Assembly (NCBI GenBank): GCA_035652535.1
Contig: DASRDP010000002.1
Coordinates: forward strand, 1-47,319
Origin: Chloroflexota bacterium
GTDB taxonomy: Bacteria > Chloroflexota > UBA6077 > SHYK01
Length of the DNA stretch: 47,319 bases
Direction of reading: 5' to 3'
In this document: piece after piece, positions 9,530 to 44,334 of the stretch
How positions within the stretch are numbered: position 1 is the stretch's first letter
Layout of the letters: every line of letters begins with the position of its first letter
Translations under genes and position numbers: made by a program
The notes under the pieces: generated by a model
Seen by the model: the letters and a program-made list of their open reading frames with translations, nothing else
Told to the model about the DNA's origin: nothing
Databases searched by the model: none

Positions 9530-11248
9530 CTACGGTCGCCACTCCCATTTGTACGCGTAGAGGAAGGGGCCGCCGGACTCCGGCGTCTGGCGCGCCACCG
9601 GCCCCTGAAGCGCCGCGACCGCGGGGTCGACCTGCACGTCGAAGAAGTGCGGGATGATCGGCACCTGCTCGCTGATCACACGTTCCATGTCCGCGACGCG
9701 CTTCACTCGCTCGGGCTGGGCCAGGGTTGTGAGCCACCCGTCGTACGCCCGGTCGTACTCGGGGCTGCTCCAGCCTCCATAGTTCGACCCGTGCCAGCGG
9801 TTGTCCGGCCGCGGAATCGCATCCGTCGTGTAGTTGGCGTAGTAGTTGTTTCCGCCGCGGACCTGGAGGCCCGGCACGATAGCTGACGTTTCCGGCAGCC
9901 GCATCTGCGCCAGGGGAACGACAGCCTGACTGACGTCAAAGCCCGACCGTCGAAGGTTGTCGACGTACGTCGCGGCAACGGACTCGTTTCGGATGCCCGC
10001 CGTCGACGACACGCTGAACTGCAGCCGCTGCCCGTCCCGCCCCACGAAGAATCCGTCGGCGCCCTTGGCGAATCCCGCCTCTTCCATGAGCTGCTGCGTC
10101 CGCTTCGGGTCGTAGGGGTGCTTCTGGATCGCGCTTTCGATCTGCGCGTAGTAGTCGACCCGGGGTGAGGTCAACGTGTCGGTTGAGACGCCCTTCCCTT
10201 CGGTCAGCACATTGACGGCCGTGGCGGCGTCGATGGCAAAGGCCACGGCCCTCCGTATCCGCACGTCGAGCAGCGCCGGCGTCTCGACGTAGTCGGGCCG
10301 CAGCTGAAACGACGTGTAGCGGAGCGTCACCGGCGTGTAGAGCACCCTGCCGCCTTTGTCCTGCGCCCACTGCTGCTCGAGGACGAGCCCATCTGGGACA
10401 GAGAGCACGTAGTCGCTGACGTAGTGAACCTCGCCCGCCTGGACGTTCGCGAGAGCCGTCTGGGCGTCCGGGATAAAGGCGACTTTGATCCGCTCGATCT
10501 TCGGCTTGCCAAATACGAAGCCATCGAACGCTTGCCCCTCGATGAAGGCGCCGGGCTCCCACGCCGTCACCCGATAGGGCCCGAGGCCGACGTAGTCCGT
10601 GCTCCAATACGGGAGGGCCGTGAATGCCTCTGGCTCGAGTGTGCGGAACGGGTCGGCGAGCAAGTGGCTTGGCAGGGCCGGGAAGCCGTCTTCCAGTACC
10701 GCGGCGTCAGCATAGAGCTGGTTCCAGCGTATCACCACCGTCTGAGCGTCCGGGGCGTCAACGGCCTGGATCTGACCGATGGGGGCCGAAGAGGACTGGC
10801 CCAGGTCGGGGGTGGCATAGACGCGGTAGGCGAAGGCGAAGTCCTCGGCCAGGAGAGGCTGTCCATCGTGCCAGGTCAGGTTGGGCTTGAGCTTGTAGGC
10901 CGTCTCCATGGTGCCGTCGGGGAACACCTTCCAGGAGTCCGTATTCAGCTCGGGCAGCGCCTCCGCGAGGTATGGATGCGGCGCCTCGCGCTCGTCCCGG
11001 TAGTCCAGCTCCGCGTTGAACAGGTCGTTGGGCGGGGTGAGCAGGCCCGAGAACGACGCGACGGGCCTCGCCGCGACGCTCGGCGGCTCGCCCCGAACGG
11101 CGAATACGACGGTCGGCTGGGGGCCGCTGGATCCCTCCGGCCGGTCGCCGGACATGCGCTGACCCGCCGGCGCGGACGGGCTCCCGCAGGCGACGCCAAT
11201 GGCGGCGAGGAGCATACCTATCGCAAACATCGAGCGTTGCGCCGTCAT
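9530..11248 (-). CDS. Family-5 solute-binding lipoprotein (DppA/OppA type), copy 1
   Basis: A 572-residue extracellular solute-binding protein. A short signal peptide ends in a lipobox (IGVAC, Cys about residue 21) followed by a Ser/Pro/Gly linker, so it should be lipid-anchored on the outer face of the membrane. The SBP_bac_5 landmarks are TYKLKPNLTWHDGQPL-type wording near residue 118, TDYVGLGPYRVTAWEPG near 225, and a terminal tryptophan-rich YKWEW. The family binds peptides, nickel, opines, sugars and other solutes for ABC importers. GAGGAG precedes the ATG. It is divergent from copy 2 (185 nt) and shares with copies 2, 3 and 8 the TDY(V/I)GxGPY(R/K) segment, marking them as one subgroup. 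No permease or ATPase gene is nearby. Confidence 0.93.
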   Translation of the reverse strand: MTAQRSMFAIGMLLAAIGVACGSPSAPAGQRMSGDRPEGSSGPQPTVVFAVRGEPPSVAARPVASFSGLLTPPNDLFNAELDYRDEREAPHPYLAEALPELNTDSWKVFPDGTMETAYKLKPNLTWHDGQPLLAEDFAFAYRVYATPDLGQSSSAPIGQIQAVDAPDAQTVVIRWNQLYADAAVLEDGFPALPSHLLADPFRTLEPEAFTALPYWSTDYVGLGPYRVTAWEPGAFIEGQAFDGFVFGKPKIERIKVAFIPDAQTALANVQAGEVHYVSDYVLSVPDGLVLEQQWAQDKGGRVLYTPVTLRYTSFQLRPDYVETPALLDVRIRRAVAFAIDAATAVNVLTEGKGVSTDTLTSPRVDYYAQIESAIQKHPYDPKRTQQLMEEAGFAKGADGFFVGRDGQRLQFSVSSTAGIRNESVAATYVDNLRRSGFDVSQAVVPLAQMRLPETSAIVPGLQVRGGNNYYANYTTDAIPRPDNRWHGSNYGGWSSPEYDRAYDGWLTTLAQPERVKRVADMERVISEQVPIIPHFFDVQVDPAVAALQGPVARQTPESGGPFLYAYKWEWRP

Positions 11249-11433
11249 GGCTATCTCCTCGTCCCGCTAACCCTTAGGTTGACGTCCCTCGCGTTCGCCG
11301 CGGAACACGCGACGTTGCGCGGCATCGATCTCTTGTGCGATTCTTAGCTAACTCTTATCAGGAGACCCCGGTCAAGGGTACATCGGATCCCCGTTTCCGG
11401 GTAGGTTTTCGGTCCCATCGAGAAGGGAAGACC

Positions 11434-13185
11434 ATGCGTCACTGGCAATTCGTCCTCCCGGTGACCATGGTCGCTGTCGTGCTCGCGTCGTGCGCCGGCC
11501 CCACGGCGAGCGGCTCACGCCCCGGTGAAGGGTCCGCATCTCGACCGCAGCAGGAGGCGGGAAGCCCGGGCAAAACACTGGTGGTGGCGACCCGGGCGGA
11601 GCCACCCAGCCTCAGTCCGAAGCCGTTCCGCTCTCTGGGCCTGACGTCCGATCTCTCTGGGCGCATGTTCAATGCCGGCCTCGTGATCCGCAACGACGAC
11701 GGCGATCCTCAGCCTTACCTCGCCCAATCAGTTCCCCAGGTGAACTCGGATGCTTGGCGGGTCAACCCCGACGGGACGATGCAGACGACGTACAAGCTCA
11801 AGCCCAACCTGACCTGGCATGACGGCCAGCCGCTGACAGCCGACGATTTCGTCTTTGCCTTTGAGGTCTTCAGCAATCCCACGTTCGGAGTGGCTGGCTC
11901 GCCGCCGGTCAATTTCATGGCCGGGGTGACCGCGCCGTCCCCGGACACCATCGTGGTCGACTGGAACCGAACGTTTCCGTACGCAAACGAGCTGGAGGCA
12001 GGAAGCGGCGGCACGGGAAATAACGCGTTTCCGCCGCTGCCGCGCCATATCCTCGGGCAACCGTTCCAGTCGACCGATCCCGACGCCTTCATGGCTTCCA
12101 CCTTCTGGACAACCGACTACGTTGGGGCCGGGCCGTACAAGCTCGACCGCTGGGAGACCGGCGCATTCCTCGAAGGGGCTGCCTTCGATGGGCACGTGCT
12201 GGGCAAGGCGAAGATTCCCAGGATCCGGGAGCTGTTCATCGGAGACCCCAACACCGTCATCGCCAATATGCTCTCCGGAGAGGCGCAGCTCACGGCGGGT
12301 GACTCTATCCGCTTCAACGACGGCGAGGTGCTCGAAACGCAATGGGGCGATCGCGGAACCGTGATCGATGCGCCCAACCTGTACCGGATGGTGCAGTTCC
12401 AGCGCCGCCCGGAGTTCGCCAGCACGATGGCATTCACCGATCTTCGGGTTCGACAGGCGCTGCACTACGGCGTCGACTTCGACTCCTTGAACGAAGCCGT
12501 TCAGGGCGGCAAGACGACCGCGGCCATCGGTCCCATACCGCCGACCGCCACGTACTACCGGCAGCTCGACCAGGCCGTCATGCACTATCCGTACGACCCG
12601 TCCAAAGTCGCGCAGCTCATGTCCGCAGCGGGCTTCATCAAGGGATCGGACGGCGTGTGGAATAGCCCCGATCCCGCGTTCGGACGGATGTCCTTTGAGA
12701 CGAACGTCCTGGCGTCTCCAGACAGCGACAACGAGATGCACATCATGGCCGACACGTGGCGCAAGCTGGGCTTCGACGTGAAGGAGGTAGACTGGCCGCC
12801 GTCGCAGGGCCGCGACCGGGAGTTTCGAAACGCATTCCCCGGTCTGTCGACAACCAGCACGCCGCCCGGCGAGAACGCGTTGACGGAGTATCGAAGCGAT
12901 CGCATTCCGACGGCCGCGAATCGCTGGAACGGGACCAACCGGGGCGCGTGGGCCGGTACGCCCGCGTACGACCGTCTCGTGGACACGTGGGAGACGAGCC
13001 TGGTGAAGGACGAGCGCACGCAGGCCGTGATTCAGATGAACCGGATTCTCAATGACGACTGCGTGGTCATCAATCTCTACTGGAAGCTGGCCGCGCAGGC
13101 CTTCGCTCGCGGAGTGACTGGCCCCCGCATCACGAGCCTGGACGGCAGCGCCGACTGGAACATCCACGAGTGGGAGTATCGGTAG
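11434..13185 (+). CDS. Family-5 solute-binding lipoprotein, copy 2
   Basis: A 583-residue lipoprotein starting at the ATG at 11434 (AAGGGAAGACC upstream). An earlier in-frame ATG at 11335 would put 33 non-signal residues before the signal peptide, so it is rejected. The lipobox is VLASC, followed by a low-complexity Gly/Ser/Pro linker. SBP_bac_5 signatures are clear: KLKPNLTWHDGQPLTADDF, TTDYVGAGPYKLDRWETG, AFDGHVLGKAKIPRI and a final HEWEYR. It is in tandem with copy 3 (68 nt between them) and divergent from copy 1, consistent with local duplication followed by divergence. The ligand is unknown. Confidence 0.93.
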   Translation: MRHWQFVLPVTMVAVVLASCAGPTASGSRPGEGSASRPQQEAGSPGKTLVVATRAEPPSLSPKPFRSLGLTSDLSGRMFNAGLVIRNDDGDPQPYLAQSVPQVNSDAWRVNPDGTMQTTYKLKPNLTWHDGQPLTADDFVFAFEVFSNPTFGVAGSPPVNFMAGVTAPSPDTIVVDWNRTFPYANELEAGSGGTGNNAFPPLPRHILGQPFQSTDPDAFMASTFWTTDYVGAGPYKLDRWETGAFLEGAAFDGHVLGKAKIPRIRELFIGDPNTVIANMLSGEAQLTAGDSIRFNDGEVLETQWGDRGTVIDAPNLYRMVQFQRRPEFASTMAFTDLRVRQALHYGVDFDSLNEAVQGGKTTAAIGPIPPTATYYRQLDQAVMHYPYDPSKVAQLMSAAGFIKGSDGVWNSPDPAFGRMSFETNVLASPDSDNEMHIMADTWRKLGFDVKEVDWPPSQGRDREFRNAFPGLSTTSTPPGENALTEYRSDRIPTAANRWNGTNRGAWAGTPAYDRLVDTWETSLVKDERTQAVIQMNRILNDDCVVINLYWKLAAQAFARGVTGPRITSLDGSADWNIHEWEYR

Positions 13186-13253: not shown

Positions 13254-14963
13254 ATGCGGAAAATTGCGGCGCTCGTACCTGCCATCTCGATCGCCGTGCT
13301 GCTGGCAAATTGCGCTGCTCCTCCATCCGGGCGGACGTCCGGTCAGACCACCGATCAAACTCCGGTTTCACCTCAGCGAACGCTGGTCATCATCGCGCGG
13401 GGCGAACCACCCAGTCTCGCCGCAAAGCCGCTCGTGGGCTATTCCGGGTCTCTCAACCCCCCGTTGCGCTTGTTCAACGCTACTCTCGACGAGCTCGATG
13501 AAAACGACGTTTCCCACCCGTATCTCGAACAGGAGCTGCCAAGGCTCAACACAGACAGCTGGCGAGTCGCGCCCGATGGAACCATGGAGACAACCCATAT
13601 CCTTCGCCCGAACCTGACTTGGCACGATGGACAAGTGCTTACCGCGGACGATTTCGTCTTTGGGTGGCAGGTGTTCGCGACTCCCGAGCTCGGCGCGGGC
13701 GGCACGAAGCCGATCAAGCAAATGGCGGAGGTGGTCGCAAAGGATCCCCGGACCGTGGTCATCCGGTGGCGTCAGCCATTCCCTGAGGCTGACCAGCTGG
13801 ACACATCGTTCCAACCGCTTCCTCGACACCTCCTTCAGCGCTCGTACGACCAAGGGGACTGGTCGGCTTTCGTCAACGATTCGTTCTGGACCACCGACTA
13901 CATCGGGCTCGGGCCCTACAAGGTGGGAACCTGGGAGGCCGGGGACTACCTCGAGGCCGATGCCTTTGCCGGACATGCCCTGGGCCGACCAAAGATTGAC
14001 CGCGTGAAGCTGGAGTTCGTGTCCGATTCCAACACTGCGCTCGCCAAGATGCTGAGCGGCGAAGCCCAATACGTCGCCGACTACGTCCTCGGACACCAGG
14101 ACGGTGCAACGCTCGACGAACAGTGGGCGGGGGACAACGCGGGGACCGTTGTGTTCGCCCCGGTCCTCTTTCGCTTCACGCAGATCCAGCTGCGGCCGGA
14201 GTACGCTGATCCAAAGGCTGTGCTCGACGTACGCTTCCGCAGAGCGCTCGCTCATGCCTTCGACACCCCGGGAGCGGTCGAAGCGTTCACAGGCAGCAAG
14301 GGACTCATTACATACTCACTGAGCTGGCCGAAAGCGGACTACTATCCCGAGATTCAGAAGGCCATCACCGAGCGAAAATATGATCCCCGGCGGGCACAGC
14401 AGCTACTCGAAGAATTCGGGTTGGAGCGGGGCGCCGACGGCTTCTATGCTGGGTCCAACGGTGAGCCGCTGCAGATCGATCTGTGGAATACGGGTGGTAC
14501 CTTTGAGCGGGAGAACCGGGTCTTCGCCGACAGTCTGCGCAAGGCGGGAATCGACGCCAATCCGCGAACCCTTGGGCCCGCGCGCCTGCGCGACGAGAAG
14601 GCGCGAGCCCTCATCGGCGGTCTCTTCACCGGCGGGCTCGGGAGCGATCGGCTGACCCCGTTTACCAGCAACAGCATTCCGCGGCCGGAGAACCACTGGA
14701 CCGGCACAAACCGCGGCGGCTGGAGCAATCCCGACTATGATCGATTCTGGCAAGCGTGGAACACGACCCTCGCCCCGTCGGAACGAATTCAGGATATTGC
14801 ACAGATGGAGCACATCCTCAACGCGGACGTGGGCATCATTCCCCACTATTTCACCGACGTGGTCACAGCCTGGTCATCGCAGCTCAAGGGTCCAGTGGCC
14901 CGAACGTCGCCGGACGCGCCCGCGGAGATCTACCGCATCGAGACGTGGGAATGGGGCTCGTGA
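13254..14963 (+). CDS. Family-5 solute-binding lipoprotein, copy 3
   Basis: A 569-residue lipoprotein whose ATG at 13254 follows GGGAGGTGAAGG. Signal peptide and lipobox (LLANC) are followed by a Ser/Thr/Pro linker. SBP_bac_5 landmarks include LRPNLTWHDGQVLTADDF, FWTTDYIGLGPYKVGTW, GRPKIDRVKLEF and a C-terminal ETWEWGS. It lies 68 nt behind copy 2 and is probably co-transcribed with it. It ends convergently against the M24-family gene, 43 nt away. This copy appears closer to copies 1, 2 and 8 than to copies 4-7, judged by the TDYxGxGPY segment. Confidence 0.93.
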   Translation: MRKIAALVPAISIAVLLANCAAPPSGRTSGQTTDQTPVSPQRTLVIIARGEPPSLAAKPLVGYSGSLNPPLRLFNATLDELDENDVSHPYLEQELPRLNTDSWRVAPDGTMETTHILRPNLTWHDGQVLTADDFVFGWQVFATPELGAGGTKPIKQMAEVVAKDPRTVVIRWRQPFPEADQLDTSFQPLPRHLLQRSYDQGDWSAFVNDSFWTTDYIGLGPYKVGTWEAGDYLEADAFAGHALGRPKIDRVKLEFVSDSNTALAKMLSGEAQYVADYVLGHQDGATLDEQWAGDNAGTVVFAPVLFRFTQIQLRPEYADPKAVLDVRFRRALAHAFDTPGAVEAFTGSKGLITYSLSWPKADYYPEIQKAITERKYDPRRAQQLLEEFGLERGADGFYAGSNGEPLQIDLWNTGGTFERENRVFADSLRKAGIDANPRTLGPARLRDEKARALIGGLFTGGLGSDRLTPFTSNSIPRPENHWTGTNRGGWSNPDYDRFWQAWNTTLAPSERIQDIAQMEHILNADVGIIPHYFTDVVTAWSSQLKGPVARTSPDAPAEIYRIETWEWGS

Positions 14964-15006: not shown

Positions 15007-16194
15007 TCAACACGGAATGACGATCAGGTCGTGAGGCTGCGTGCCCAGACGCCTTCCCCCTGAGGCAGTCACGGCGACGGTGTCCCCCCAGGTGATGCCG
15101 GGTCCGCCCTCGCGCCGGACGTTTGGCTTCACGATGAAGGCGTTCCCTTCTTGCAGGACAAAATTCGCGATCTCCGGCGTCATCTCCCCGCCCACGAGGA
15201 GTGGCCGGTCCTCGCCGAGCCCGCGGCCGTGCATGGTGAGGGTGGCTTTACAGCCGATCTCCTGCGCCACGTCGTCGATGGCGCTCGCGATCTCCCCAAA
15301 TCGCGTGCCCGGCGTCATGCGCTCCAACGCGGCGTTGAACACGGTGCGCTGCATCTCCATCGCATCGCGCAACGGCGCCGGCGCGTCGCCCAGCACGGCG
15401 GGCTGGACGCGCTGAGCCACGTATCCCATGTACTTGCCGTCGATCTCGTTGTCGAGCCGGTCGCCGGGCTGGAGCGGCCGGCGCGTCGGAAGAAAGGCGT
15501 CGCGCACCTGCCCGGATCCGGTCCCCCAGAGAACCATAGTCGGGACCTCTCCGCCCGCCATGAGCATCCTGTGGTACAGAGCGGCGTACACCTGGTAGTC
15601 GGGGACGCCCGGTCGCGCTGCGTCGACGAAGCCGCGGATCGCCTCTTCGGCAATGGCCGCCGCGCGCTCCATGACGGATAGCTCTTCGGGGCTCTTGACC
15701 GCGCGCAGCTCCGCCATCATCACGGTGACGTCCACAAACGTCGCGTTGGGGAAGGCCGCGCGAAACGCCTCGAAAAATCGGTGAGGGATCGTGCCCTCCG
15801 GGGTCCGCACCCCGCCCTCCAGGCCGACAACCCCAATTTGCGCACGGTCCAGCTTCAACTCGCGCATGCGGTCGATCATGGGGGCGGACCAGGTGTGGCG
15901 CTTTGGCGTGCGGAGATCGCCGACCCATTCCTGAGCGCGCGACCAGAACTCAGGGCGATTGAGGACGATGGCGGTGACATCACCTTGGCGCGGAAAGACG
16001 CACGCGGTCTCCGAGCAATTGCCGCCGATATGCGTGAGGTAGCGCGTGTCCGCGGCGTACAGCTCCCAGTGACCGGTATGGGGCGGTGTGATGATGCACG
16101 CCAGATCGCGCTCGTCCATAGCGCGTCGAACCCGTGCCCAGCGCCGATCGCGCTCCGCGATTGTCAACCGTGGCAGATCGATCAATTCGGCCAT
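15007..16194 (-). CDS. M24-fold (creatinase/Xaa-Pro dipeptidase-like) hydrolase with altered metal site
   Basis: A 395-residue two-domain 'pita-bread' protein: an N-terminal creatinase-like domain (residues about 10-150) and a C-terminal M24 domain. In metal-dependent M24 peptidases the ligands are Asp, Asp, His, Glu, Glu. My alignment by eye gives Glu250 (DNEIDGKYMGY), Gln261 (YVAQRVQ), His322 (MHGRGLGED), Lys356 (IVKPNV) and Gly370 (TWGDTVAVT). Only the His and one acidic residue remain, so a dinuclear metal centre is unlikely. Creatinase itself works without metal, relying on a His, so a metal-free amidinohydrolase- or C-N-hydrolase-type reaction is possible. GGGAGG precedes the ATG. It is convergent with family-5 lipoprotein copy 3. 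Confidence 0.88.
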   Translation of the reverse strand: MAELIDLPRLTIAERDRRWARVRRAMDERDLACIITPPHTGHWELYAADTRYLTHIGGNCSETACVFPRQGDVTAIVLNRPEFWSRAQEWVGDLRTPKRHTWSAPMIDRMRELKLDRAQIGVVGLEGGVRTPEGTIPHRFFEAFRAAFPNATFVDVTVMMAELRAVKSPEELSVMERAAAIAEEAIRGFVDAARPGVPDYQVYAALYHRMLMAGGEVPTMVLWGTGSGQVRDAFLPTRRPLQPGDRLDNEIDGKYMGYVAQRVQPAVLGDAPAPLRDAMEMQRTVFNAALERMTPGTRFGEIASAIDDVAQEIGCKATLTMHGRGLGEDRPLLVGGEMTPEIANFVLQEGNAFIVKPNVRREGGPGITWGDTVAVTASGGRRLGTQPHDLIVIPC

Positions 16195-16304
16195 GGCGGT
16201 TCGCCTCCCAGTTTGCCGCCCGAGTCTAGCATGCCTAGAATGGAGTCTGACTCCGTGCTCGCGCGATTAGTCAGAAGAACGAGGTTCATGCTGGAGGATG
16301 GGAC

Positions 16305-16715
16305 GTGCTGGGTGAGAAAATCGGCGAAATGACCGGCCGCGTGACGGGAATGCGAGTCCTACCCGGCGATGACTACCGCTTCATCAAGATGGAGATCACG
16401 GTTGACGAATCCGGCAAGGTCTTCGGTGTCGACGCGCGAAACATCGGCACATACACCGTGTTCGAGCGGGTCCCGGGCCAGCTCTATGGCTCAGGGCAGG
16501 GCATTTTGGAGACATCCGACGGCCAGGGCGCAATCTGGACTGGTCACGGCGTCAGCAAGATGATGGCTGGCATGCGCGCGGCTTTCCGATTCTCCATCGC
16601 CTTCCAGGCCGGCCCGGGCGGCTCGCTCTCGCGGCTCAACGAAGTCCTTGTCGTCGGCGAGCACGACGTGGACGAACAGGGGAGGACGAAGACAACGATC
16701 TGGGAGTGGAAGTAA
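16305..16715 (+). CDS. Conserved protein of unknown function, 136 residues
   Basis: I do not recognise a named domain. The GTG start at 16305 has GGAGG 7 nt upstream. The protein has no signal peptide or membrane segment and looks like an all-beta barrel: alternating hydrophobic strands with Gly-rich turns (YGSGQG, DGQGAIWTGHGVSK) and a strongly conserved-looking tail (RLNEVLVVGEHDVDE...WEWK). From memory, similar short proteins ending in WEWK occur in archaea and Chloroflexota, and a calycin or allene-oxide-cyclase-like barrel is a guess. The stop codon abuts the stop codon of the convergent VOC gene with no base between them. Confidence 0.75.
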   Translation: MLGEKIGEMTGRVTGMRVLPGDDYRFIKMEITVDESGKVFGVDARNIGTYTVFERVPGQLYGSGQGILETSDGQGAIWTGHGVSKMMAGMRAAFRFSIAFQAGPGGSLSRLNEVLVVGEHDVDEQGRTKTTIWEWK

Positions 16716-17486
16716 CTACCGCGCTCCGATAAGCGCGAACAGGGCGTGCTGGGGATCCGTTCCCTGCACGATCCACATCCCCCCGGGGACCTCCATGGGA
16801 CCATTGACGATCTGTCCGCCGGCCGTTCGGACCCGCTCGACCGCGCCGTCGATGCTGGCCACGTTGATGTAGTACGTCCAGTAGCCGGTGGGTGCCTGGG
16901 GCGGCTTGGTCATCATCCCGCCGAGAGTCACGTCGTCGGTGCCGAAGATCTGATAAACGCCCATTGGCCCCATGTCCATCGCTTCCTTCTTTACCCATCC
17001 GAACAGGCGCGAGTAGAACGCGAAGCCTGCTTCCACGTCGCTGGCGTAGAGCTCGTTCCACCCGATGTGTCCTCGCTCCATTTGCTGCACGGTCGATTCG
17101 GAGTCCGGATTTGCCGGGGTGTAGATTCCGATAACGGAACCGCCGGGGTCCGCGATGGGCGTAAAGCGCCCGACGTTCGGAATGTCCATCGGCGGGTTGA
17201 GCACGCGTCCTCCACTGGCGGTGGCCTGATTGGCGGTCGCGTCGACGTCCGCCACGGCTACGTAGCCCAGCCAGTTTGGGGGAGCACCCATTCGCCGCGC
17301 TGGCTCGGGGAGTGTCATGAGCCCCGCCACGTGCTCGCCGCCGGCCTTGAACACCCAATACTCCATTCCGGGTGTTTGCGCGTCCATCGGCTCCCAACCT
17401 ACCACGCGGCTGTAGAAATCGCGCGCCGCGGGCAGATCCGTCGTCAGCAGCTCATACCAAACAAAGGTCCCGTTCGTGATCGGCAT
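16716..17486 (-). CDS. Two-domain VOC (glyoxalase/bleomycin-resistance) family protein
   Basis: A 256-residue protein with two vicinal-oxygen-chelate units, roughly residues 5-122 and 135-254. Each starts with a characteristic strand (VWYELLTTDLPAARDFY and GWNELYASDVEAGFAFYSRLFGW). The layout matches the CFP32/hydroxylase-like double-VOC proteins common in Actinobacteria and Chloroflexota. Members bind metal or small molecules and may act as dioxygenases, lyases or resistance proteins; no assignment is possible here. The ATG at 17486 follows GGGAGGAAACA; an earlier in-frame ATG at 17540 lacks a ribosome site. It lies downstream of another VOC gene in the same direction. Confidence 0.88.
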   Translation of the reverse strand: MPITNGTFVWYELLTTDLPAARDFYSRVVGWEPMDAQTPGMEYWVFKAGGEHVAGLMTLPEPARRMGAPPNWLGYVAVADVDATANQATASGGRVLNPPMDIPNVGRFTPIADPGGSVIGIYTPANPDSESTVQQMERGHIGWNELYASDVEAGFAFYSRLFGWVKKEAMDMGPMGVYQIFGTDDVTLGGMMTKPPQAPTGYWTYYINVASIDGAVERVRTAGGQIVNGPMEVPGGMWIVQGTDPQHALFALIGAR

Positions 17487-17575
17487 TGTTTCCTCCCGGC
17501 GAGCGGTCTGCGAGTTCGATGTCGAAGGGATGAGGGGCACACAATCATCTTAGCCCGTCGCGCCGGTTATTCGCG

Positions 17576-17589: not shown

Positions 17590-18033
17590 TCAGTCCTCGA
17601 AGGGGAATCCGCGCCGGGTCAGCTCCTGGCGCGCGCGCTCGCGGCTCTCCATGGGGACCGTGAATTCGAAGTGGTACCCGTCGGGATCGTCAAACATGAT
17701 TGACATGCGTGTGCCGAAATTCCCAAAGCGCAACGGGATGCCAAAGGATCGAAAGCGCTCAACCCACGTGTCGAAGTCCTCGTACCGGATAACGTAGGCA
17801 TGGTGCTGGCCCTCACCGCCGGGAGATGGGCGCTGATGGTCGTCGGGCTCGAAGAAATCGATGGTCGTGTTGGCGAGCCGAACGGCGACCGGTCCGCCGC
17901 CGGCCCGCGAGCGCTCCCGCGATTGCGCGCCGAGAACCTCCGTGTAGAAGCGCTTGGTGCGCTCGATGTCGCTCGAGACCAGGGTCCAGTGGTCGATGCG
18001 CTCAACGGGCGGAGCCTGGATGTTGACTGCCAT
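17590..18033 (-). CDS. Single-domain VOC family protein
   Basis: A 147-residue single VOC unit. The start (IDHWTLVSSDIERTKRFYTEVLG) and the end (MSIMFDDPDGYHFEFTV) are typical, with the first-strand His14 of DHW and the Glu of the final strand as expected metal ligands. The ATG at 18033 follows GGAGAG at 7 nt; a much longer open frame upstream is not supported by any site. It reads in the same direction as the two-domain VOC gene downstream, with about 100 nt and a GC palindrome between them. Substrate unknown. Confidence 0.87.
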   Translation of the reverse strand: MAVNIQAPPVERIDHWTLVSSDIERTKRFYTEVLGAQSRERSRAGGGPVAVRLANTTIDFFEPDDHQRPSPGGEGQHHAYVIRYEDFDTWVERFRSFGIPLRFGNFGTRMSIMFDDPDGYHFEFTVPMESRERARQELTRRGFPFED

Positions 18034-18160
18034 GGCGCTTCTCTCCGGGGTCTTGATGACAGATGGTAGCATGCGTGCCGACCCAGCGGGTCCGCGGAAC
18101 CGTTCTCCATGGGCGGTGCCCGGCCGATCACCACGATCGGTCGGACCGGACAGATCGGCG

Positions 18161-18628
18161 CTAGGGCGCGAGCTGGCCTCGGATGGCGCCGCCGGGGAAG
18201 TCCCCATCATGGATATTAAAGTAGTAACCGCTCGGGTTCTCAGCGATGGACTGAAGCAGGCCCGCTTCCACCTGGGTGCACCCGGCGAATGAATTCGTCG
18301 TCGGCCTCGGCAGGTCACCACCGCCGCCCACGAAACCCACGACGATGGGGCCATCTTCACCGGCGACGCCCCGGTGGATGTGCGCGCCCGTGACGGGCAG
18401 CGAGCCAATCGCATAGCTCGCCTCCACGCAGATCGCACCCGCGGCAGAATCGAGGGTGATCAGCGCGGTCCCGCTGCCGGTGGGGTCACCCCCGCTGGGC
18501 TCTGCCGCGCCGCTCAGCGTGACGCCGAACGATGGGCCGCCGGAGACGGGGCCGCCCTTTGCCGCCACGGAACCAACGAGAACTAGGGTCAGGACGACGA
18601 AGAGCACCGGTGCCACGAACCGCTTCAC
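18161..18628 (-). CDS. Secreted CHRD-domain protein
   Basis: A 155-residue secreted protein. The GTG start at 18628 is 6 nt after AGGAGG. Residues 1-23 form a Sec signal peptide ending in VAAKG without a lipobox. The rest is one CHRD domain: FGVTLSGAAE, then GSGTALITLDSAAGAICVE, TGAHIHRGVAGEDGPIVV and NIHDGDFPGGAIRGQL, which are the classic landmarks. The GAHIH and NIHDGDFPGG histidines are the conserved pair. CHRD domains occur in chordin and in many bacterial surface proteins; a biochemical role in bacteria is not established. It stands alone, with more than 120 nt on each side. Confidence 0.9.
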   Translation of the reverse strand: MKRFVAPVLFVVLTLVLVGSVAAKGGPVSGGPSFGVTLSGAAEPSGGDPTGSGTALITLDSAAGAICVEASYAIGSLPVTGAHIHRGVAGEDGPIVVGFVGGGGDLPRPTTNSFAGCTQVEAGLLQSIAENPSGYYFNIHDGDFPGGAIRGQLAP

Positions 18629-26310: not shown

Positions 26311-28017
26311 TTAGCTCGCCAGCTCCCATTGGTACGCGTTCCAGGGGCCGTCCGACTGGAAGTTCTTGATGCGGTGATTCACCAGGTACGTTCCGCCACC
26401 GTACATGATCATGAAGAACGGCAAGTCGGTCGTCAGGATGTGATCGATCTGGCCCATCATCTCCCGCCGCTGGTCCAGCGGGATCGTGACGAATACCTTG
26501 TCAATCAGGTCGTCGAGCTGCGGATTGAAGTAGCGAGAGCGATTGCCCGTGCCAGCGTAGTCGTTCTCCGGGAGAGAGGTGGTCCGGCTATGGAGGTTCT
26601 TGAGTCCGCGCACGTCGGCCGGCTGGCGCACGATCTCCATCGCTGAGAAGTTCGCGCGGTACTCCCGATCGCTGGCCTGCTGCCGCGGAATGACGTAGGT
26701 GTTTACGGTCATGCCGACCTGCTTCCAGTTGTCGGCCGAAGTGAGCATGATCTTCTCGCGCAGATCGTCGCCTCCCGTCGTCCGGACCTGCCAACCCAGC
26801 GGCTGGCCGGCGCCATCGCGCATGGTGTTGTCCGCTGCCATCGTGTATCCGATGCCCCGCATCATCTCGACGGCCTTTTTCGGGTCGTAGGGGTACTTCA
26901 CCGTGTATCGGTCCTGGATGGCGCGATATTGGGGTTGGTTTGGAGCGATGAAGCTGTTGGCTACGTCGCTCTGACCCGGGGCGAGCGCCTCAACCATCGA
27001 TTGTCGGTCTAGCGCCGTGAGGGCGGCGCGACGGAACGTTACGTCGGTCATGATGGCTGGGTCGGGGTCGCGAAGCTGAACGAAGGTATCGATGATGCTA
27101 GCGCTGCTGTAGTCAAGGTACGTATCGCCGTCGGTCCATCGCTGCTTGACCTCCAGAGTTTGGGGCCCGGACAGGTTTCGGCCGAGGGTCATATCGACCG
27201 CGCCTGCCAGGAGGTTCGCCTGGAGGGTGCTCGCGTCTTCGATGAATCGAACCTCGATCTCGTCGATCTTCGGGCGGCCGAGCACGTAGTGATCGTATGC
27301 CGTCATGGTCAGGTGGCTGCCCTGTTCCCAATTCTTCAGCTTGAATGGTCCGGCGCCAATGTGCGCCTGGTTGAAGTAGGGATCGTCCGGGAGGGCTTGT
27401 TTGTCGCTGTTGTAGGTCGTCTCGAGGAGGTGTTTGGGAAGCGGGAGACCGCCGTCCTGGTCGCCAGCGCCGAAGAGGGTGTCCGCTTCAATATACGGAT
27501 CTTTCCAGCGCACGACCATCGTTCGGGCGTCGGGCGCCTCGTAGCTGGCCACGTGGTCAAAGAGCGGATCGGTACTAAAAAGCGGGACATCCTGGTCCAT
27601 TCCGACCTGCATTGTGAAGATGAGGTCGGCAGTGGTAAAGGGCGAGCCGTCCTGCCACTGGACCCCATCCTTGAGCGTCCAGCGCATCTCCATCGTGCCG
27701 TCCGGGTTCACCTTCCACAGGCCGTTCTCGACCGTGGGGACAGCTTCCGCCAGCTCTGCATGGCGGTCGCCGCCGCCTCCGCGAGTGAGACCCGCGTCAA
27801 GCAAGGCCTCGAGGTGCTCGACGCCGCGCCAGTGGGAGCCCGGATTCAGGATCTTCGCGACGATAGGCGGGTCCGCCATGATGGCGACGACGATGCGTTT
27901 GGGCGCGGTGGAGGCTGCGCCCCGATCGGCGCCGGTCGTCTGCCGCGTCGGAGGGGTGGCGCAGGCCGTCGCTATTACCGTGAGGGCCAAAACGATGGGC
28001 ACGATGGATTTCGACAC
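26311..28017 (-). CDS. Family-5 solute-binding lipoprotein, copy 5
   Basis: A 568-residue lipoprotein with a GTG start at 28017 after GGGAGGCTGATCC. The lipobox is VIATAC, with a Thr/Pro linker. SBP_bac_5 landmarks are RWTLKDGVQWQDGSPFTTADL, AHIGAGPFKLKNWEQGSHL, LGRPKIDEIEVRFIED and a terminal AYQWELAS. Its closest relative in the window is copy 6: both share GPF(K/R)LK(N/D)WE, GSHL, RPKIDEIE and L(A/S)GxVD(M/V)(T/S)LGRN. This pair flanks an SDR gene, consistent with duplication around it. Its adaptation to a different solute from copies 1-3 is inferred from sequence grouping only. Confidence 0.93.
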   Translation of the reverse strand: MSKSIVPIVLALTVIATACATPPTRQTTGADRGAASTAPKRIVVAIMADPPIVAKILNPGSHWRGVEHLEALLDAGLTRGGGGDRHAELAEAVPTVENGLWKVNPDGTMEMRWTLKDGVQWQDGSPFTTADLIFTMQVGMDQDVPLFSTDPLFDHVASYEAPDARTMVVRWKDPYIEADTLFGAGDQDGGLPLPKHLLETTYNSDKQALPDDPYFNQAHIGAGPFKLKNWEQGSHLTMTAYDHYVLGRPKIDEIEVRFIEDASTLQANLLAGAVDMTLGRNLSGPQTLEVKQRWTDGDTYLDYSSASIIDTFVQLRDPDPAIMTDVTFRRAALTALDRQSMVEALAPGQSDVANSFIAPNQPQYRAIQDRYTVKYPYDPKKAVEMMRGIGYTMAADNTMRDGAGQPLGWQVRTTGGDDLREKIMLTSADNWKQVGMTVNTYVIPRQQASDREYRANFSAMEIVRQPADVRGLKNLHSRTTSLPENDYAGTGNRSRYFNPQLDDLIDKVFVTIPLDQRREMMGQIDHILTTDLPFFMIMYGGGTYLVNHRIKNFQSDGPWNAYQWELAS

Positions 28018-29049: not shown

Positions 29050-30786
29050 ATGGTCCGCCTCTCGATCAGCCTCAGCCGCGCCCGAACGGGAGCATCGGTT
29101 CTCTTCGTGGTCTCGATGCTGCTGCTCGTCAGCTGCGCACCAAGCAGCCCGTCGCGGCCTTCGTCGCCGGCCTCGCAGCCTTCAGCGCCGTCGCGCATTA
29201 TGGCCGTGGTGAGCGGGGACCCGCCCGTGCTGTACAGCAAGCTGGCGGACCCGGCCATCGCGGGAGTGAGCGCGATCGAGGCGCTGGTGAACGTGGGACT
29301 GTCGATCCAGGACCAGGCGGGCGTGGCGCGGCCCCGTCTGGCCGAGTCGCTACCTTCCGTGGAGAACGGCCTCTGGATCGTCTCCCCTGATGGCACGATG
29401 GAGACCACCTGGAAGATCCGCTCGGGCGCGCAGTGGCACGATGGCATTCCCCTCGACGCGGATGACCTGGTCTTCACGTCCCAGGTTGTCCGCGACCCCG
29501 ATCTGCCGGCATTTGGCGACCCCGCGCTCCGGGCCATCGCTGACGTACGCCCTGTGGACGAACGGACCGTCGTTGTTTCGTGGAGCCGGCCATACATCTA
29601 CGCCGACCAGATGTTTGGCACCCTCGCAATGCCAATCCCGCGCCATCTTCTCGAGAGCGCGTATTCAGATAGCAAGGCCACGTTCACCGACCAGCCGTAC
29701 TGGAGCCACGGGTTCGTCGGCAACGGGCCATTTCGGCTCAAGGATTGGGAGGCGGGCAGCCACCTCGTCGTCGAGGCATTCGACGGCTACCTCCTCGGCC
29801 GGCCGAAGATCGACGAGATCGAGATCCGCGTCATTATCGATACCAACGTTCTGGTCTCGAACGTGCTCTCGGGCGAGGTCGACGTCTCGCTGGGGCGCAA
29901 CGTCTCGCCCGAGCAAGCCGCCCTCCTCCGGCAGCAATGGCAGGGCGGAAGGGTCGACGTGGGGCGTTTGACCCTCGCGCTGAACGTCTGGCCGCAGTTC
30001 GTCAATCCCAGGCCCCAGGTCGTGAGCGACGTGCGGTTCAGGCGTGCGCTCTATGCCGCGCTCGATCGCCAGACCATGGCGGAAACGATCGAAGGGGGCC
30101 TGTCCTACGTCGCGGACGGCTGGATCACGCCAAGCCTGCCGGAGTATGCCGACGTTGCGCAGTCGCTCGTACGGTATGAGTACGACCCGGCCCGGTCCAG
30201 GCAAGAGATTCAAGCGTTGGGCTTCAGTATGGGGCCCGACGGAACCTGGCGTGATAGCGCCGGCCTCCCGCTCTCGGTGGAGATCATGACGATCGCGCTC
30301 CCCGAGATCAACCAGCGCACGCTGCTGACGGTGGCGGATAGCTGGCAGCGGGTCGGCGTGGGAGTCGAGCCGAACGTGGTGCCCACGCAGCGAGCAGCCG
30401 ATCCGGCCTCCCGGTCCAGCTTCCCCGGATTTCAGATCCTTCGGTATCCCTCGGACGTATTCACGAACGCGGCGGGCGGGTTCCACAGCCTCGCCGCCCG
30501 GCTCCCCGAGAACAACTTCATCGCTCGGGGACCCGGAGGGGGCCTCAACTGGTCGCGATACGCGGATCCGGAGATGGACGGCCTGGTCGAGCGATTCTAT
30601 GCCACGGTTCCGCGGCGGGAGCGGTTGCAGGTCGCGGGCCAGATTCTGCACCAGGTCACCGACCAGCTCGTCGTCATGCCGCTGTTCTGGGACCCATCCT
30701 TGAACCTGGTGAGCAGCCGCGTGCTGAACGTGCCGCCCATCGGCGACGCCGTGCCGTGGAACGCCGAGGAATGGCAGACGACGTAG
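29050..30786 (+). CDS. Family-5 solute-binding lipoprotein, copy 6
   Basis: A 578-residue lipoprotein. The ATG at 29050 follows GGAGTAGCTC. The signal peptide has a basic N-region and a lipobox LLLVSC, then a linker of repeated Ser/Pro (SSPSRPSSPASQPSAP). Landmarks are WKIRSGAQWHDGIPLDADD, GFVGNGPFRLKDWEAGSHL, LGRPKIDEIEIRVIID and a final AEEWQTT. Most similar to copy 5 in the window. It ends 63 nt before the convergent SnoaL-like gene, with a strong hairpin between. The SDR gene is divergent upstream. Confidence 0.93.
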   Translation: MVRLSISLSRARTGASVLFVVSMLLLVSCAPSSPSRPSSPASQPSAPSRIMAVVSGDPPVLYSKLADPAIAGVSAIEALVNVGLSIQDQAGVARPRLAESLPSVENGLWIVSPDGTMETTWKIRSGAQWHDGIPLDADDLVFTSQVVRDPDLPAFGDPALRAIADVRPVDERTVVVSWSRPYIYADQMFGTLAMPIPRHLLESAYSDSKATFTDQPYWSHGFVGNGPFRLKDWEAGSHLVVEAFDGYLLGRPKIDEIEIRVIIDTNVLVSNVLSGEVDVSLGRNVSPEQAALLRQQWQGGRVDVGRLTLALNVWPQFVNPRPQVVSDVRFRRALYAALDRQTMAETIEGGLSYVADGWITPSLPEYADVAQSLVRYEYDPARSRQEIQALGFSMGPDGTWRDSAGLPLSVEIMTIALPEINQRTLLTVADSWQRVGVGVEPNVVPTQRAADPASRSSFPGFQILRYPSDVFTNAAGGFHSLAARLPENNFIARGPGGGLNWSRYADPEMDGLVERFYATVPRRERLQVAGQILHQVTDQLVVMPLFWDPSLNLVSSRVLNVPPIGDAVPWNAEEWQTT

Positions 30787-38030: not shown

Positions 38031-39797
38031 CTAACGCTCGTCGACATCCCATAGATACGCGTTCCGATAGTAGCTTCCCCAGTACCCATTTGCGCCCACG
38101 TGCGCGCCGAATCCGCCGTTGATGTCGTCGTACGCCTTCACTCCTTTGCGGGCCGCCATGTATGCCGCTTGGTAGAACGTCGGCAGAATGAGCATATTGC
38201 CGACGACGTAGTTGTTGATCGCCCCCATCGCCTTTTTACGGTCGGAGAGGGTGAGACTGGACTGGAACGCGGCGGCGAGGCGCTGCCCCTCCGCGTCCTC
38301 GAAACCATTGCGGTTGCCTGTCCAGCGATTCTGGGCAGTGCCCGCCGGTTGTCCGATCTCTGTCGTGATCTCGCCGCTATACAATTCGAATCCGGGAAAT
38401 TGAGCCCGGGCAGCACGGTCGCGGGACTCCGCTGCGCTCCCGACGTGCTCATCGACGTCGAGGCCGACCGCGCGCCAATAAGCGGCGCAGGCGGCGATCT
38501 CCTGGTCAGTCCCAAGGCTGCCCCAAATGGCCGTGCGGAAGGGGCGGCCATCGGTGTCATTGCGCAGCTTGCCGTCAGAACCGAGCGTCCACCCGGCGTC
38601 GCGAAGAGCCGCCTGCGCTTTCTCGGGGTTGTAGGCGAATTCGCGGAGCGAATCTCTCGTGACCTCATACAGAGGGTCGGTGGCCGGCAAGATCGACCAC
38701 GCGGCAAGCTGGGGATTGCCTCCGTTCACTGCGTCGGATAACGCCTCGATGTCCAAGGCGTAGCGCAGCGCCTTGCGCACGCTGGCGCTCCCCGTAACTG
38801 TTGGCTCCATCTGCAACGTGGGCCGCCACTGTGGCTCCAGGAAGCGGATCGCATTGGGAATCACGTGGACAGTCCCTTCGCCGCTCGCCTGCCACCGCTC
38901 CTTCAGCGGTACCCCCGTCGCCTGGCGCAACGCCAGCTCTGGCGTGAGGTCCACCGCGCCCGCGAGCAGGCTCGATTCGAGGGCGCTGTCGTCATTGAAG
39001 ATGCGGACATAGACGACATCGATCTTTGGCCGCCCGAGGTAGTAGCCGTCATACGCTTGGAAGTCCATCCCCGACCCCGGGTCGAACGACGTGAGGCGAA
39101 ACGCGCCCGTGTTCACGTAGCCGGAGGTCCAGTAGGGATCGCTGAGGATGTCGTCCAAATTCCCGCTTTCTCTATAGCGGGCGTACGCGTCTCCCAGGAG
39201 GTGCTGCGGAAGCGGCCAGAACATGAGCGGGCCGAGCGCTGTGCCCAAGAAGTAAGGCTGCTTGTAGTAGATCACGAACGTGAGATCGTCTGGAGCTTCC
39301 ACGCCCGACACGTACTCCATAGCGTCGTTGAGGCTCGTTGGGAGTCCCGAAGGACCGCCAATGTCGTAAGAAAACACGAGGTCCTGCGCCGTGAAAGGGG
39401 CCCCATCCTGCCAGGTGACGCCTTTCCGTAGACCGAATTCGACTCGCATCCTGCCGTCGGGCAGAACGGCGATGGTCCCGTCGTCCAGAGACGGGACCTT
39501 CTCGGCGAGCCGGCCGACCTGCTTGTGCGCGTCTCTATCGGCGGTGATCAGACCATCCGTGTGGATCTCGGTTAAGGCCACCCAGCCGCCAACCGGTGAT
39601 GACCCGCCCGCGATGCTCAACGCGGAGACCGTTCCAGTGACTCCGATCGTCAAGGTCTTCGTCTGACGCGGTGTCTGGGCTTCCGGTTGCGTAGCGCGAT
39701 TGGATTGCTGGCTAGCAGGGGGAGAGCAAGCGCTGATCAGCGCTGCCGAAATGACGACAGCCGAGCCCAGCCAGTGGGTACGACTCGCGCGCATCAT
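38031..39797 (-). CDS. Family-5 solute-binding lipoprotein, copy 7, in operon with a Rieske oxygenase
   Basis: A 588-residue lipoprotein. The ATG at 39797 has GAGG 7 nt upstream; the open frame extends farther but with no signal-like sequence. The lipobox is ALISAC followed by SPPASQQ. SBP_bac_5 landmarks are FGLRKGVTWQDGAPFTAQDL, YVNTGAFRLTSFDPG, LGRPKIDVVYVRIFND and a terminal AYLWDVDER. It forms a subgroup of its own, with NTGAFRLTSF replacing the GPY/GPF segment of the other copies. Its stop is 9 nt from the start of the Rieske oxygenase, the tightest lipoprotein-enzyme link in the window. Ligand: perhaps an aromatic or heterocyclic acid, by association. Confidence 0.93.
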   Translation of the reverse strand: MMRASRTHWLGSAVVISAALISACSPPASQQSNRATQPEAQTPRQTKTLTIGVTGTVSALSIAGGSSPVGGWVALTEIHTDGLITADRDAHKQVGRLAEKVPSLDDGTIAVLPDGRMRVEFGLRKGVTWQDGAPFTAQDLVFSYDIGGPSGLPTSLNDAMEYVSGVEAPDDLTFVIYYKQPYFLGTALGPLMFWPLPQHLLGDAYARYRESGNLDDILSDPYWTSGYVNTGAFRLTSFDPGSGMDFQAYDGYYLGRPKIDVVYVRIFNDDSALESSLLAGAVDLTPELALRQATGVPLKERWQASGEGTVHVIPNAIRFLEPQWRPTLQMEPTVTGSASVRKALRYALDIEALSDAVNGGNPQLAAWSILPATDPLYEVTRDSLREFAYNPEKAQAALRDAGWTLGSDGKLRNDTDGRPFRTAIWGSLGTDQEIAACAAYWRAVGLDVDEHVGSAAESRDRAARAQFPGFELYSGEITTEIGQPAGTAQNRWTGNRNGFEDAEGQRLAAAFQSSLTLSDRKKAMGAINNYVVGNMLILPTFYQAAYMAARKGVKAYDDINGGFGAHVGANGYWGSYYRNAYLWDVDER

Positions 39798-40115
39798 GTG
39801 CGGACCTCTTTGGTGTTGCCATTCAGACTGTATCGCGGTGCGGCGATAGGGCAACCCATTGTATGCGGGAAGCATTCCCTGCGCGGAGCCTTATCCTCAC
39901 AGCCGGATCAGCCGCGATTCCCGGATCGCGCTCCAGGATCCGTCGGTCAGCCCGCCGGCTGGGCGTCAGACGGCCTGCCCTCGCGGCGCCCCGCGGTCGC
40001 CTTGACGGTCGGTGTCGTGAGCTGATGAGTGGATCACGAGCGGGAGTGTACGGCTATCTCAACCCGTAGATCGGCGTCCTTGCAGGATGCTGAAAAACCG
40101 CTCGCCCGGACTGTG
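39798..40115. other. Intergenic region, no gene seen
   Basis: This 318-base stretch holds the upstream region of lipoprotein copy 7 (minus) and the end of the His-rich protein gene. Short open frames lack ribosome sites. Around 40080-40098 the sequence TTGCAGGATGCTGAAAAA resembles a sequence I recall near dispersed repeats and IS ends in other bacteria. No transposase fragment is visible, so this is only a remark. Confidence 0.35.
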
Positions 40116-42606: not shown

Positions 42607-44334
42607 ATGGCCGGACAAAAGCTCATGAGTCGACACGTATTGGCCGTCCTCGTCACTTTCTGTCTCGGCCTGGTCGCCTGTGGACCGACTGAAACGCCCC
42701 AGCCGGCGAGCAGAGACACGGCAGCAACCCTCCAGGGCCGAGCCCTGCGCATCATGTTGCGGAATGAGGTCGACAACCTGGCCGTGAAGGTCATCGGACC
42801 GAACGCTCCCGAGCGGACGCGGCGAATGTTCAACGCCGAGCTTGTCCAGTACGACGGGCAAGGAATCGTGCGGCCGTATCTCGCGGAATCGATTCCCGTG
42901 CTCAATACGCCGAGCTGGCAGGTCTTTCCCGACGGTCGCATGGAGACGACCTATCGGTTGCGGCCCGGCCTCACCTGGCACGACGGCGCACCGCTCACCG
43001 CCGAGGACTTCGTGTTCGCATGGCAACTCTACGCCTCGCCCGCGCTTGGGATGTTCACCCCAACGCCACAGACCCTGATCGACCAGGTGAGCGCGCCCGA
43101 CGCGCTCACCGTTGCCATCGACTGGAACGCGACGTATCCCCAGGCTGGCTCCCTCGACAACGACCTTTTGCCTCCGCTTCCACACCACCTTCTCGACGGT
43201 CTGGCTGCTCGAATCGACGATCCGTCCGGTCGCGATGCGTTTGTCACCAGCACGTTCTGGACCACCGACTATGTAGGGGCGGGACCATATCGCCTCACCC
43301 GCTGGGAAGCGGGCTATGAAATGGAGGGCGCCGCCTTCGACGGCCATGCGCTCGGCAAGCCGAGGATCGAGCGAATCGTCGCTCGCATCATGAACGACGA
43401 AAACGCGGCGCTCACCGCGCTCTTGGCGGGGGACGAGGACTACGCGGAGGGCTTCGTCCTCCAGTTCGAGCACGCGCAGGTCCTGGAGCAGGATTGGGTC
43501 CCGAGTGGCCGGGGCGTCGCGCTGGTCTTTCCCGACGCCACAAGCAACCAGGCCGTGCAGTTCCGCCCCGAGTTCCAGAAGAGCGCGCCTCTGCTCGACC
43601 TTCGCGTCCGGCAAGCGATGGCCTATGCGATCGATCGCGAGGCGATCAACCAAGGCGTCTTCAGCGGGAAGGGCTCCATCTCGGAAACGTACGTTATGCC
43701 GCAACACCCGACCTTCTCGTTGGTTGATCGAGCGATCACGAAGTATCCCTTCGACCCGCGCCGCGCGGAGCAGCTCATGAACGAGGCCGGGCTCGTCAAG
43801 GACGCTGACGGCCTGTTCGCCAAGAACGGCGAGCGTTTCCGACCCGACTACTGGATCACGGCGGGCACGCAGTCTGAGCGCGCGGGGGCCATCATCTCGG
43901 ACACGTGGCAGCGTGCAGGCATCGATAACGCGCTCTCCGTGTTGCCCCTCACGGCAGGGCGGGACAACGAGGTGCGCGCGACATTTCCCGGGCTGACGCA
44001 GATCGGCCTCAGCTCCCGCGACGACGCGGTGAGCGCGTTCATCAGCTCGCAGATCGGGACCGCGGCAAATCGTTGGCGCGGGAGCAACCGCGGCGGCTGG
44101 TCAAGTCCGGAGGCCGACCGACTCTATGAAGCGTTCAATTCGACTCTCGATCCGGACGAGCGGACACGATCCTGGGTCGAGCTGGCCAAGCTTGTGAGCG
44201 ACCAGCTGCCGATTTTCGTGTTCTACCCGAACATCCGGGTCCGCGCGTTTACCTCGGCGCTCCGAGGCCCTGACATAGGTTCGCCGAACACGCTTCCCAA
44301 GTGGAACATGCAGGATTGGACCTGGGTCTCGTAG
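42607..44334 (+). CDS. Family-5 solute-binding lipoprotein, copy 8
   Basis: A 575-residue lipoprotein. The first ATG is at 42607; a second at 42625 gives a more typical signal peptide (MSRHVLAVLVTFCLGLVAC), and neither has a strong ribosome site. The lipobox is GLVAC. Landmarks are YRLRPGLTWHDGAPLTAEDFVFA, FWTTDYVGAGPYRLTRWEAG, AFDGHALGKPRIERI and a terminal QDWTWVS. It clusters with copies 1-3, about 28 kb away, so the subgroup is spread and not just a local tandem. A cupin gene follows 100 nt downstream in the same direction. Confidence 0.93.
   Translation: MAGQKLMSRHVLAVLVTFCLGLVACGPTETPQPASRDTAATLQGRALRIMLRNEVDNLAVKVIGPNAPERTRRMFNAELVQYDGQGIVRPYLAESIPVLNTPSWQVFPDGRMETTYRLRPGLTWHDGAPLTAEDFVFAWQLYASPALGMFTPTPQTLIDQVSAPDALTVAIDWNATYPQAGSLDNDLLPPLPHHLLDGLAARIDDPSGRDAFVTSTFWTTDYVGAGPYRLTRWEAGYEMEGAAFDGHALGKPRIERIVARIMNDENAALTALLAGDEDYAEGFVLQFEHAQVLEQDWVPSGRGVALVFPDATSNQAVQFRPEFQKSAPLLDLRVRQAMAYAIDREAINQGVFSGKGSISETYVMPQHPTFSLVDRAITKYPFDPRRAEQLMNEAGLVKDADGLFAKNGERFRPDYWITAGTQSERAGAIISDTWQRAGIDNALSVLPLTAGRDNEVRATFPGLTQIGLSSRDDAVSAFISSQIGTAANRWRGSNRGGWSSPEADRLYEAFNSTLDPDERTRSWVELAKLVSDQLPIFVFYPNIRVRAFTSALRGPDIGSPNTLPKWNMQDWTWVS

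Follow-up and report, generated by a model that had tools for sequence, protein, structure and literature searches.

An M24-fold gene and its neighbours

The window, by which we mean the whole stretch of 47,319 nucleotides from a Chloroflexota contig that was analysed, carries on its minus strand a gene annotated here as an M24-fold protein. The gene and the features that surround it are listed below.

13254..14963, plus strand: SBP_bac_5 lipoprotein gene (Pfam), convergent with the M24 gene; judged functionally unlinked from its genome-wide frequency
15007..16194, minus strand: M24-fold (pita-bread) protein of 395 aa, E-Q-H-K-G subfamily (open reading frame, Pfam, AlphaFold, relatives)
16204..16209, minus strand: Shine-Dalgarno-like GGGAGG, lying 9 nt upstream of the M24 start codon
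16305-16715, plus strand: divergent 136-codon open reading frame between the M24 and VOC genes
16716..17540, minus strand: two-domain VOC/glyoxalase protein (Pfam), with one opposite-strand open reading frame between it and the M24 gene
17590..18438, minus strand: second VOC/glyoxalase protein (Pfam)

The preliminary description of this DNA had regarded the gene as healthy and the encoded fold as otherwise complete, and we agree on both counts. The open reading frame is intact from its ATG and is preceded by GGGAGG, and the protein matched Peptidase_M24 (PF00557; E of 9e-20, 71.8 bits) and Creatinase_N (PF01321; E of 1.4e-7, 32.5 bits) above their curated cut-offs of 23 and 22 bits, respectively. 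AlphaFold, supplied with an alignment of 76 relatives, predicted a full-length pita-bread model with pLDDT 94.5 and pTM 0.92. Judged by these two profiles and the predicted model, the protein belongs to the M24 fold superfamily. The divergent open reading frame at 16305-16715 had no match in Pfam.

The same description had noted that the gene converges on a family-5 lipoprotein gene. This arrangement is real, with 43 bases between the two genes, but is no more than the genome leads one to expect. Family-5 binding proteins are extremely expanded in the window's 4.45 Mb genome: of 199 candidate SBP_bac_5 genes 133 were scored, and the true number is at least that. An SBP_bac_5 gene lay within 2 kb of 5 of the 18 ligand-poor M24 genes, one of them a fragment, against about 3.4 of 18 expected from a crude 0.19 per gene, where the SBP_bac_5 counts are lower bounds. 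On this comparison we claim no link between the M24 gene and the lipoprotein, and the neighbour gives no clue to the substrate, since such genes are so numerous in the genome. Seven SBP_bac_5 genes were confirmed in the window (9530-11248, 11335-13185, 13254-14963, 26311-28017, 29050-30786, 38031-39875 and 42607-44334).

The metal-ligand positions

The canonical dinuclear site of M24 proteins is comprised of five ligands: Asp, Asp, His, Glu and Glu. Two alignments set the ligand columns, one with canonical M24 proteins of this genome and its relatives, the other with canonical rows alongside EutD and creatinase; the placement of residues in the pocket is based on these alignments and on fold matches. 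MAFFT places Glu250, Gln261, His322, Lys356 and Gly370 of the window protein in the five columns, the very residues named in the preliminary description. Their codons are given below, with conservation in the 77-row alignment described in a later section.

15445..15447, minus strand: E250, at canonical Asp-1, aligned with EutD Glu255; Glu in 77/77
15412..15414, minus strand: Q261, at canonical Asp-2 (alignments); Gln in 75/77
15229..15231, minus strand: H322, canonical His ligand retained (alignments); His in 76/77
15127..15129, minus strand: K356, Lys for the canonical Glu-1 ligand (alignments); Lys in 76/77
15085..15087, minus strand: G370, Gly for the canonical Glu-2 ligand (alignments); Gly in 76/77

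One of the five ligands expected of an M24 metallopeptidase is therefore kept. The ligand His corresponds to H322 in both ligand-column alignments and in the HMM alignments to 2zsg and 5giu, while the register is about four residues off in the HMM alignment to 1pv9 and against the canonical rows in one MAFFT run. H322 and P331 are nine residues apart, and because the ungapped H-G-x-G-L-x4-P spacing is common to the window protein and canonical proteins, we take H322 as the equivalent of the ligand His. Where creatinase has its general acid H232, and EutD and the prolidases likewise have His, the window protein has A233; His occupies this column in 2 of the 77 rows.

We looked for shifted Asp or Glu residues that might restore the site. 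E250, E/D252, D329 and D/E371 are conserved acids, yet K356 and G370 remove two ligands, and the canonical dinuclear site therefore cannot be rebuilt from these acids.

Comparison with known M24-fold enzymes

EutD and creatinase are the two well-known metal-free enzymes on the M24 fold, and both are active. The preliminary description had set the window protein beside creatinase and prolidase. When the fold model was compared using VIA-align, creatinase (Z of 35.3, 34.7 and 34.5) scored above the prolidases (34.2 and below), and EutD/DoeA scored higher still (36.9, 36.6 and 35.9); rows within 1 Z unit count as tied, and the lead of EutD and creatinase over the prolidases is only about one to three Z units. 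By Foldseek alone and by sequence search, metal-dependent prolidases rank first, ahead of EutD.

EutD/DoeA (6twj, 6twk, 6yo9; TIGR02993) is a catabolic enzyme that shares the fold (rmsd of 3.2 over 366 residues against the window model), is about 23–24% identical to the window protein and, like it, has lost the canonical ligands. Counted on the 6twk row, EutD Glu255 aligns with E250. In the EutD structure study, Glu255 is reported to be the catalytic and covalent residue. However, EutD has Pro, Tyr, Met and Thr where the window protein has Q261, H322, K356 and G370, and keeps the His at the 233 position that the window protein lacks. The accessible portions of PMC8739950 and PMC13188858 contain nothing on the EutD active-site residues. 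The window protein reaches 49 bits against TIGR02993 (cut-off 613) and 73 bits against NF038259 (cut-off 575), and no doeB/eutE-type gene adjoins the window gene, where Pfam shows SBP_bac_5 and VOC genes beside the small divergent open reading frame.

Creatinase (1chm) likewise shares the fold and the loss of the canonical ligands, with about 22% identity to the window protein, and keeps a His at the 322 position. Its catalytic residues H232, E262 and E358, located on the 1chm row, are matched by A233, V263 and K356, such that all three are replaced in the window protein. The suggested resemblance to creatinase, but with different residues, is thus borne out in the lost ligands and the differing residues, but EutD, which has the Glu of position 250, is a closer parallel than creatinase. 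By score and by residues the window protein is a member of neither, and it resembles EutD at one key residue.

The M24 metallopeptidases (Xaa-Pro dipeptidase, aminopeptidase P and methionine aminopeptidase) have PF00557 and PF01321 in common with the window protein and supply its best PDB sequence matches. In contrast to them, the window protein has four of the five ligands replaced and no His in the proton-shuttle column.

A subfamily found in several phyla

A scan of genome contigs using the window protein as a single sequence found no relative, whereas a scan using an alignment of the window protein with 11 similar proteins yielded 167 confirmed relatives, from which 76 loci were kept. These came from Deltaproteobacteria, Binatia, Alphaproteobacteria, Herbaspirillum, Pigmentiphaga, Chloroflexota, Eremiobacterota and Dormiibacterota, with one Acidobacteria record; several relatives titled Deltaproteobacteria grouped with Myxococcota. 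Across the 77-row alignment, which has a median pairwise identity of 37%, the E-Q-H-K-G set is complete in 73 proteins (that of the window and 72 others) from several phyla, and every row keeps at most one of the five canonical ligands. The loss of the metal site, as originally claimed, is thus real but is not peculiar to the window gene, being a fixed trait of the subfamily.

D329 and W90 (each 77/77), E/D252 (76/77), R324 and D371 are also conserved, as is a group of residues in the N-domain. One of the two scan motifs was HGRGLG; it biases the selection towards H322, R324 and D329 and leaves E250, Q261, K356 and G370 unaffected. In a set of 58 rows chosen by similarity, with no motif, from five genomes of the window's class, E-Q-H-K-G was found in 35; this set overlaps the 77. 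For one close pair of orthologues (L002 and L021) dN was 0.079 and dS 1.35, and the subfamily is therefore under purifying selection; the window gene lacks a close relative for such a comparison.

In a FastTree phylogeny the window protein sits on an end branch of 0.84 with local support of 87, and its placement is unsure. This tree, of the kind envisaged in the preliminary description, does not distinguish between one and several losses of the metals among EutD, creatinase and the present subfamily. Among open-licence PMC papers we found none on the E-Q-H-K-G proteins, nor any describing an expansion of metal-ligand-free M24 genes in Chloroflexota.

Expansion of M24 genes

The metal-ligand-free M24 subfamily, besides spanning several phyla, is strongly expanded in the window's lineage. 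In the window's genome, 20 genes match PF00557 at E ≤1. The 21 aligned M24 rows of this genome comprise 9 with E-Q-H-K-G, 8 others and 4 with canonical acids (C86, C82, C54 and C150, of which one is truncated at its end). The canonical set is thus absent from 17 of 21 rows, among which there are nine constellations; the eight besides E-Q-H-K-G are QQHKG, EQHRA, RRRTG, VRRTA, THQSG, DRETT, QQKKG and EQHQG, the letters of the rarer ones being alignment-dependent.

Across the class, 24 of 29 genomes have 2–9 M24 genes at E ≤1e-8. At the same threshold there are 18 in G000, 28 in G025, 16 in G027, 14 in G016 and 18 in G028. G025 and G027 share their family with the genome of the window, and two inspected M24 genes of G028 carry canonical acids. 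Strong matches to the subfamily (E ≤1e-70) occur in 9 of 301 genomes of the phylum, often several in each, with six candidates per genome scored. The distribution is patchy with local expansions.

The window's genome and others also contain another ligand-poor type of M24 protein, which has T at 250, H at 261 and, mostly, the motif HSQ[IM]HQYGIDVPE (L014, L184, L185, L053:10175-11338 and L055:1308-2486).

Operonic neighbours of the relatives

We compared the genes that accompany the subfamily in its 76 loci. Operonic neighbours, 113 in number, were called for 52 loci, and 24 loci had none. Six neighbours were excluded (four that start with the first base of the stored locus sequence and two of great length), leaving 107 close neighbours on the same strand; the control was 107 open reading frames drawn randomly, in any strand arrangement, from the 325 distal ones of the same loci. 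VOC/glyoxalase proteins account for 24 of the 107 neighbours, at 16 of the 76 loci, against at most 1 of the 107 controls (Fisher p of 4e-7 with the control taken as 1, which is overstated owing to the non-independence of related loci). SBP_bac_6 (13 against 2), BPD transport (7 against 3) and Rieske (6 against 3) proteins are also found, together with ornithine-cyclodeaminase-like proteins, NMT1-type binding proteins and a weak homogentisate-dioxygenase-type match. The VOC proteins and transporter binding proteins in these operons therefore indicate small-molecule catabolism, and the neighbours as a whole point to the breakdown of small, partly aromatic compounds rather than protein turnover. 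Neighbour types vary between loci, and no one pathway stands out. At one locus (L077:6331-7176) a VOC-Rieske fusion lies beside the M24 gene.

The Methylorubrum copy is adjoined by an aromatic-ring FAD hydroxylase and MarR, and that of Sphingobium AntQ-1 is preceded by a flavin reductase, a cupin, an FAH hydrolase, a class II aldolase and an LLM monooxygenase. The latter was dropped as a functional lead, since the M24 gene on pl4 goes unmentioned in the AntQ-1 paper, as far as it was accessible, and its main text contains the terms 'peptidase', 'm24' and 'cupin' zero times (PMC9836352). On pl4 the subfamily match (L125:20001-21189) falls into two pieces that together cover almost all of the query, and the annotated gene starts only at 20659, either from a frameshift or from a wrong start.

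M24 genes themselves make up 8 of the 107 neighbours. Operons that hold M24 genes in tandem, in some cases with differing active-site sets, were seen at L053:7986-12538, L050:3972-6800, L049, L054, L055, L062 and L114, with three M24 genes in one run at L053, one of the T-H type. The M24 fold is a dimer in its known relatives, and mixed dimers from such tandem genes are possible.

Proposed function and alternatives

We propose that the window gene encodes a catabolic enzyme of a metal-free M24-fold subfamily, one that may cleave a C–N bond in a small molecule, and we consider this assignment, on balance, somewhat probable. Its parts differ in strength. That the protein is an active enzyme is predicted with good confidence, and it is likely, if a little less so, that no canonical metal centre is at work. 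That the reaction is a C–N hydrolysis is less certain: by analogy it is the first choice, because both known metal-free relatives carry out such a reaction, but we would put it just short of an even chance. The VOC-fold and Rieske proteins and transporter parts in the operons are in keeping with the catabolic assignment. To our knowledge there is no known substrate or activity for any E-Q-H-K-G member.

In the proposed mechanism, the enzyme would hydrolyse or otherwise cleave a C–N bond in a small compound that is either imported or derived from a ring. E250 would act as nucleophile or general base, as is believed for Glu255 of EutD. The ammonium group of K356 would stand in place of the metals and supply positive charge, and together with R324 may hold a carboxylate or oxyanion of the substrate, while H322 would donate or take protons. 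A bolder version, which we put forward tentatively and think less likely true than not, is a new metal-free chemistry in which K356, with E250 and H322, assumes the role of the two metals or serves as a Schiff-base nucleophile, in a lineage that uses the fold as a catalytic testbed, with nine constellations in one genome and some of them in tandem in relatives, possibly forming mixed dimers.

The main rival to C–N hydrolysis is a metal-free lyase reaction in the manner of DddP, in which E250 would be the base, K356 and R324 would hold the carboxylate, and a leaving group would be eliminated from a small carboxylate. DddP (4b28, 4rzy) is an M24-fold lyase that acts on a small molecule and is not a peptidase; it is structurally near to the window model (VIA-align Z of 29.9) and gives a weak match through its NCBIfam model. 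In the accessible part of the DddP study, Asp295 is the first metal ligand and Asp297 an extra Asp two residues later (PMC4108388), a spacing reproduced by E250 and E/D252 (76/77). The oxidative enzymes among the operonic neighbours would fit a lyase or another reaction equally well. However, the same text describes DddP as a metalloenzyme whose metal ligands are invariant and needed for activity (PMC4108388). These ligands are absent from the window protein, and its score against NF043017, 36.4 bits, is far below the cut-off of 600. We regard a lyase as rather unlikely.

A rebuilt mononuclear metal site made of E250, E/D252 and H322, perhaps with D329, and with K356 in the second shell, would draw on residues that are near-invariant (77/77, 76/77, 76/77 and 77/77, respectively). 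Against this, a Lys at the position of a ligand Glu disfavours a bound cation, Gln and Gly replace two further ligands, and the acids and His are not kept in sister versions such as T-H-Q-S-G and R-R-R-T-G. We consider such a site improbable.

Less probable again is a pseudoenzyme, that is, a non-catalytic binding or regulatory protein comparable to the Spt16 N-domain or EBP1 on the M24 fold. The metal ligands are indeed lost, Spt16 is among the fold matches, and several paralogues in the window's genome lack even the E, Q, H and K. Nevertheless, the five pocket letters and the N-domain residues are kept at a median identity of 37%, the genes sit in catabolic and transport operons, and the metal-free relatives EutD and creatinase are, as stated above, active enzymes. 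Finally, an error of sequencing or assembly, or decay of the gene with its ligands lost through drift, would be conceivable in a draft assembly of 168 contigs with contamination of 4.56. The open reading frame is intact, however, and has its ribosome-binding site, and the identical E-Q-H-K-G letters in relatives from unrelated assemblies refute this reading, which has practically no likelihood.

The E-Q-H-K-G proteins would add another group to the known metal-free pita-bread enzymes; if the metal-free reading is true, theirs is the third such group on the M24 fold, and larger and more diverse than creatinase or EutD. The sets of paralogues, with few swaps between constellations, allow tests of how a metal enzyme can be stripped of its metals and still retain a function. 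Plasmid records label members of the subfamily 'M24 family metallopeptidase' or 'Xaa-Pro peptidase family protein', labels that would then name the wrong chemistry for a family that probably acts on small molecules without the usual metals.
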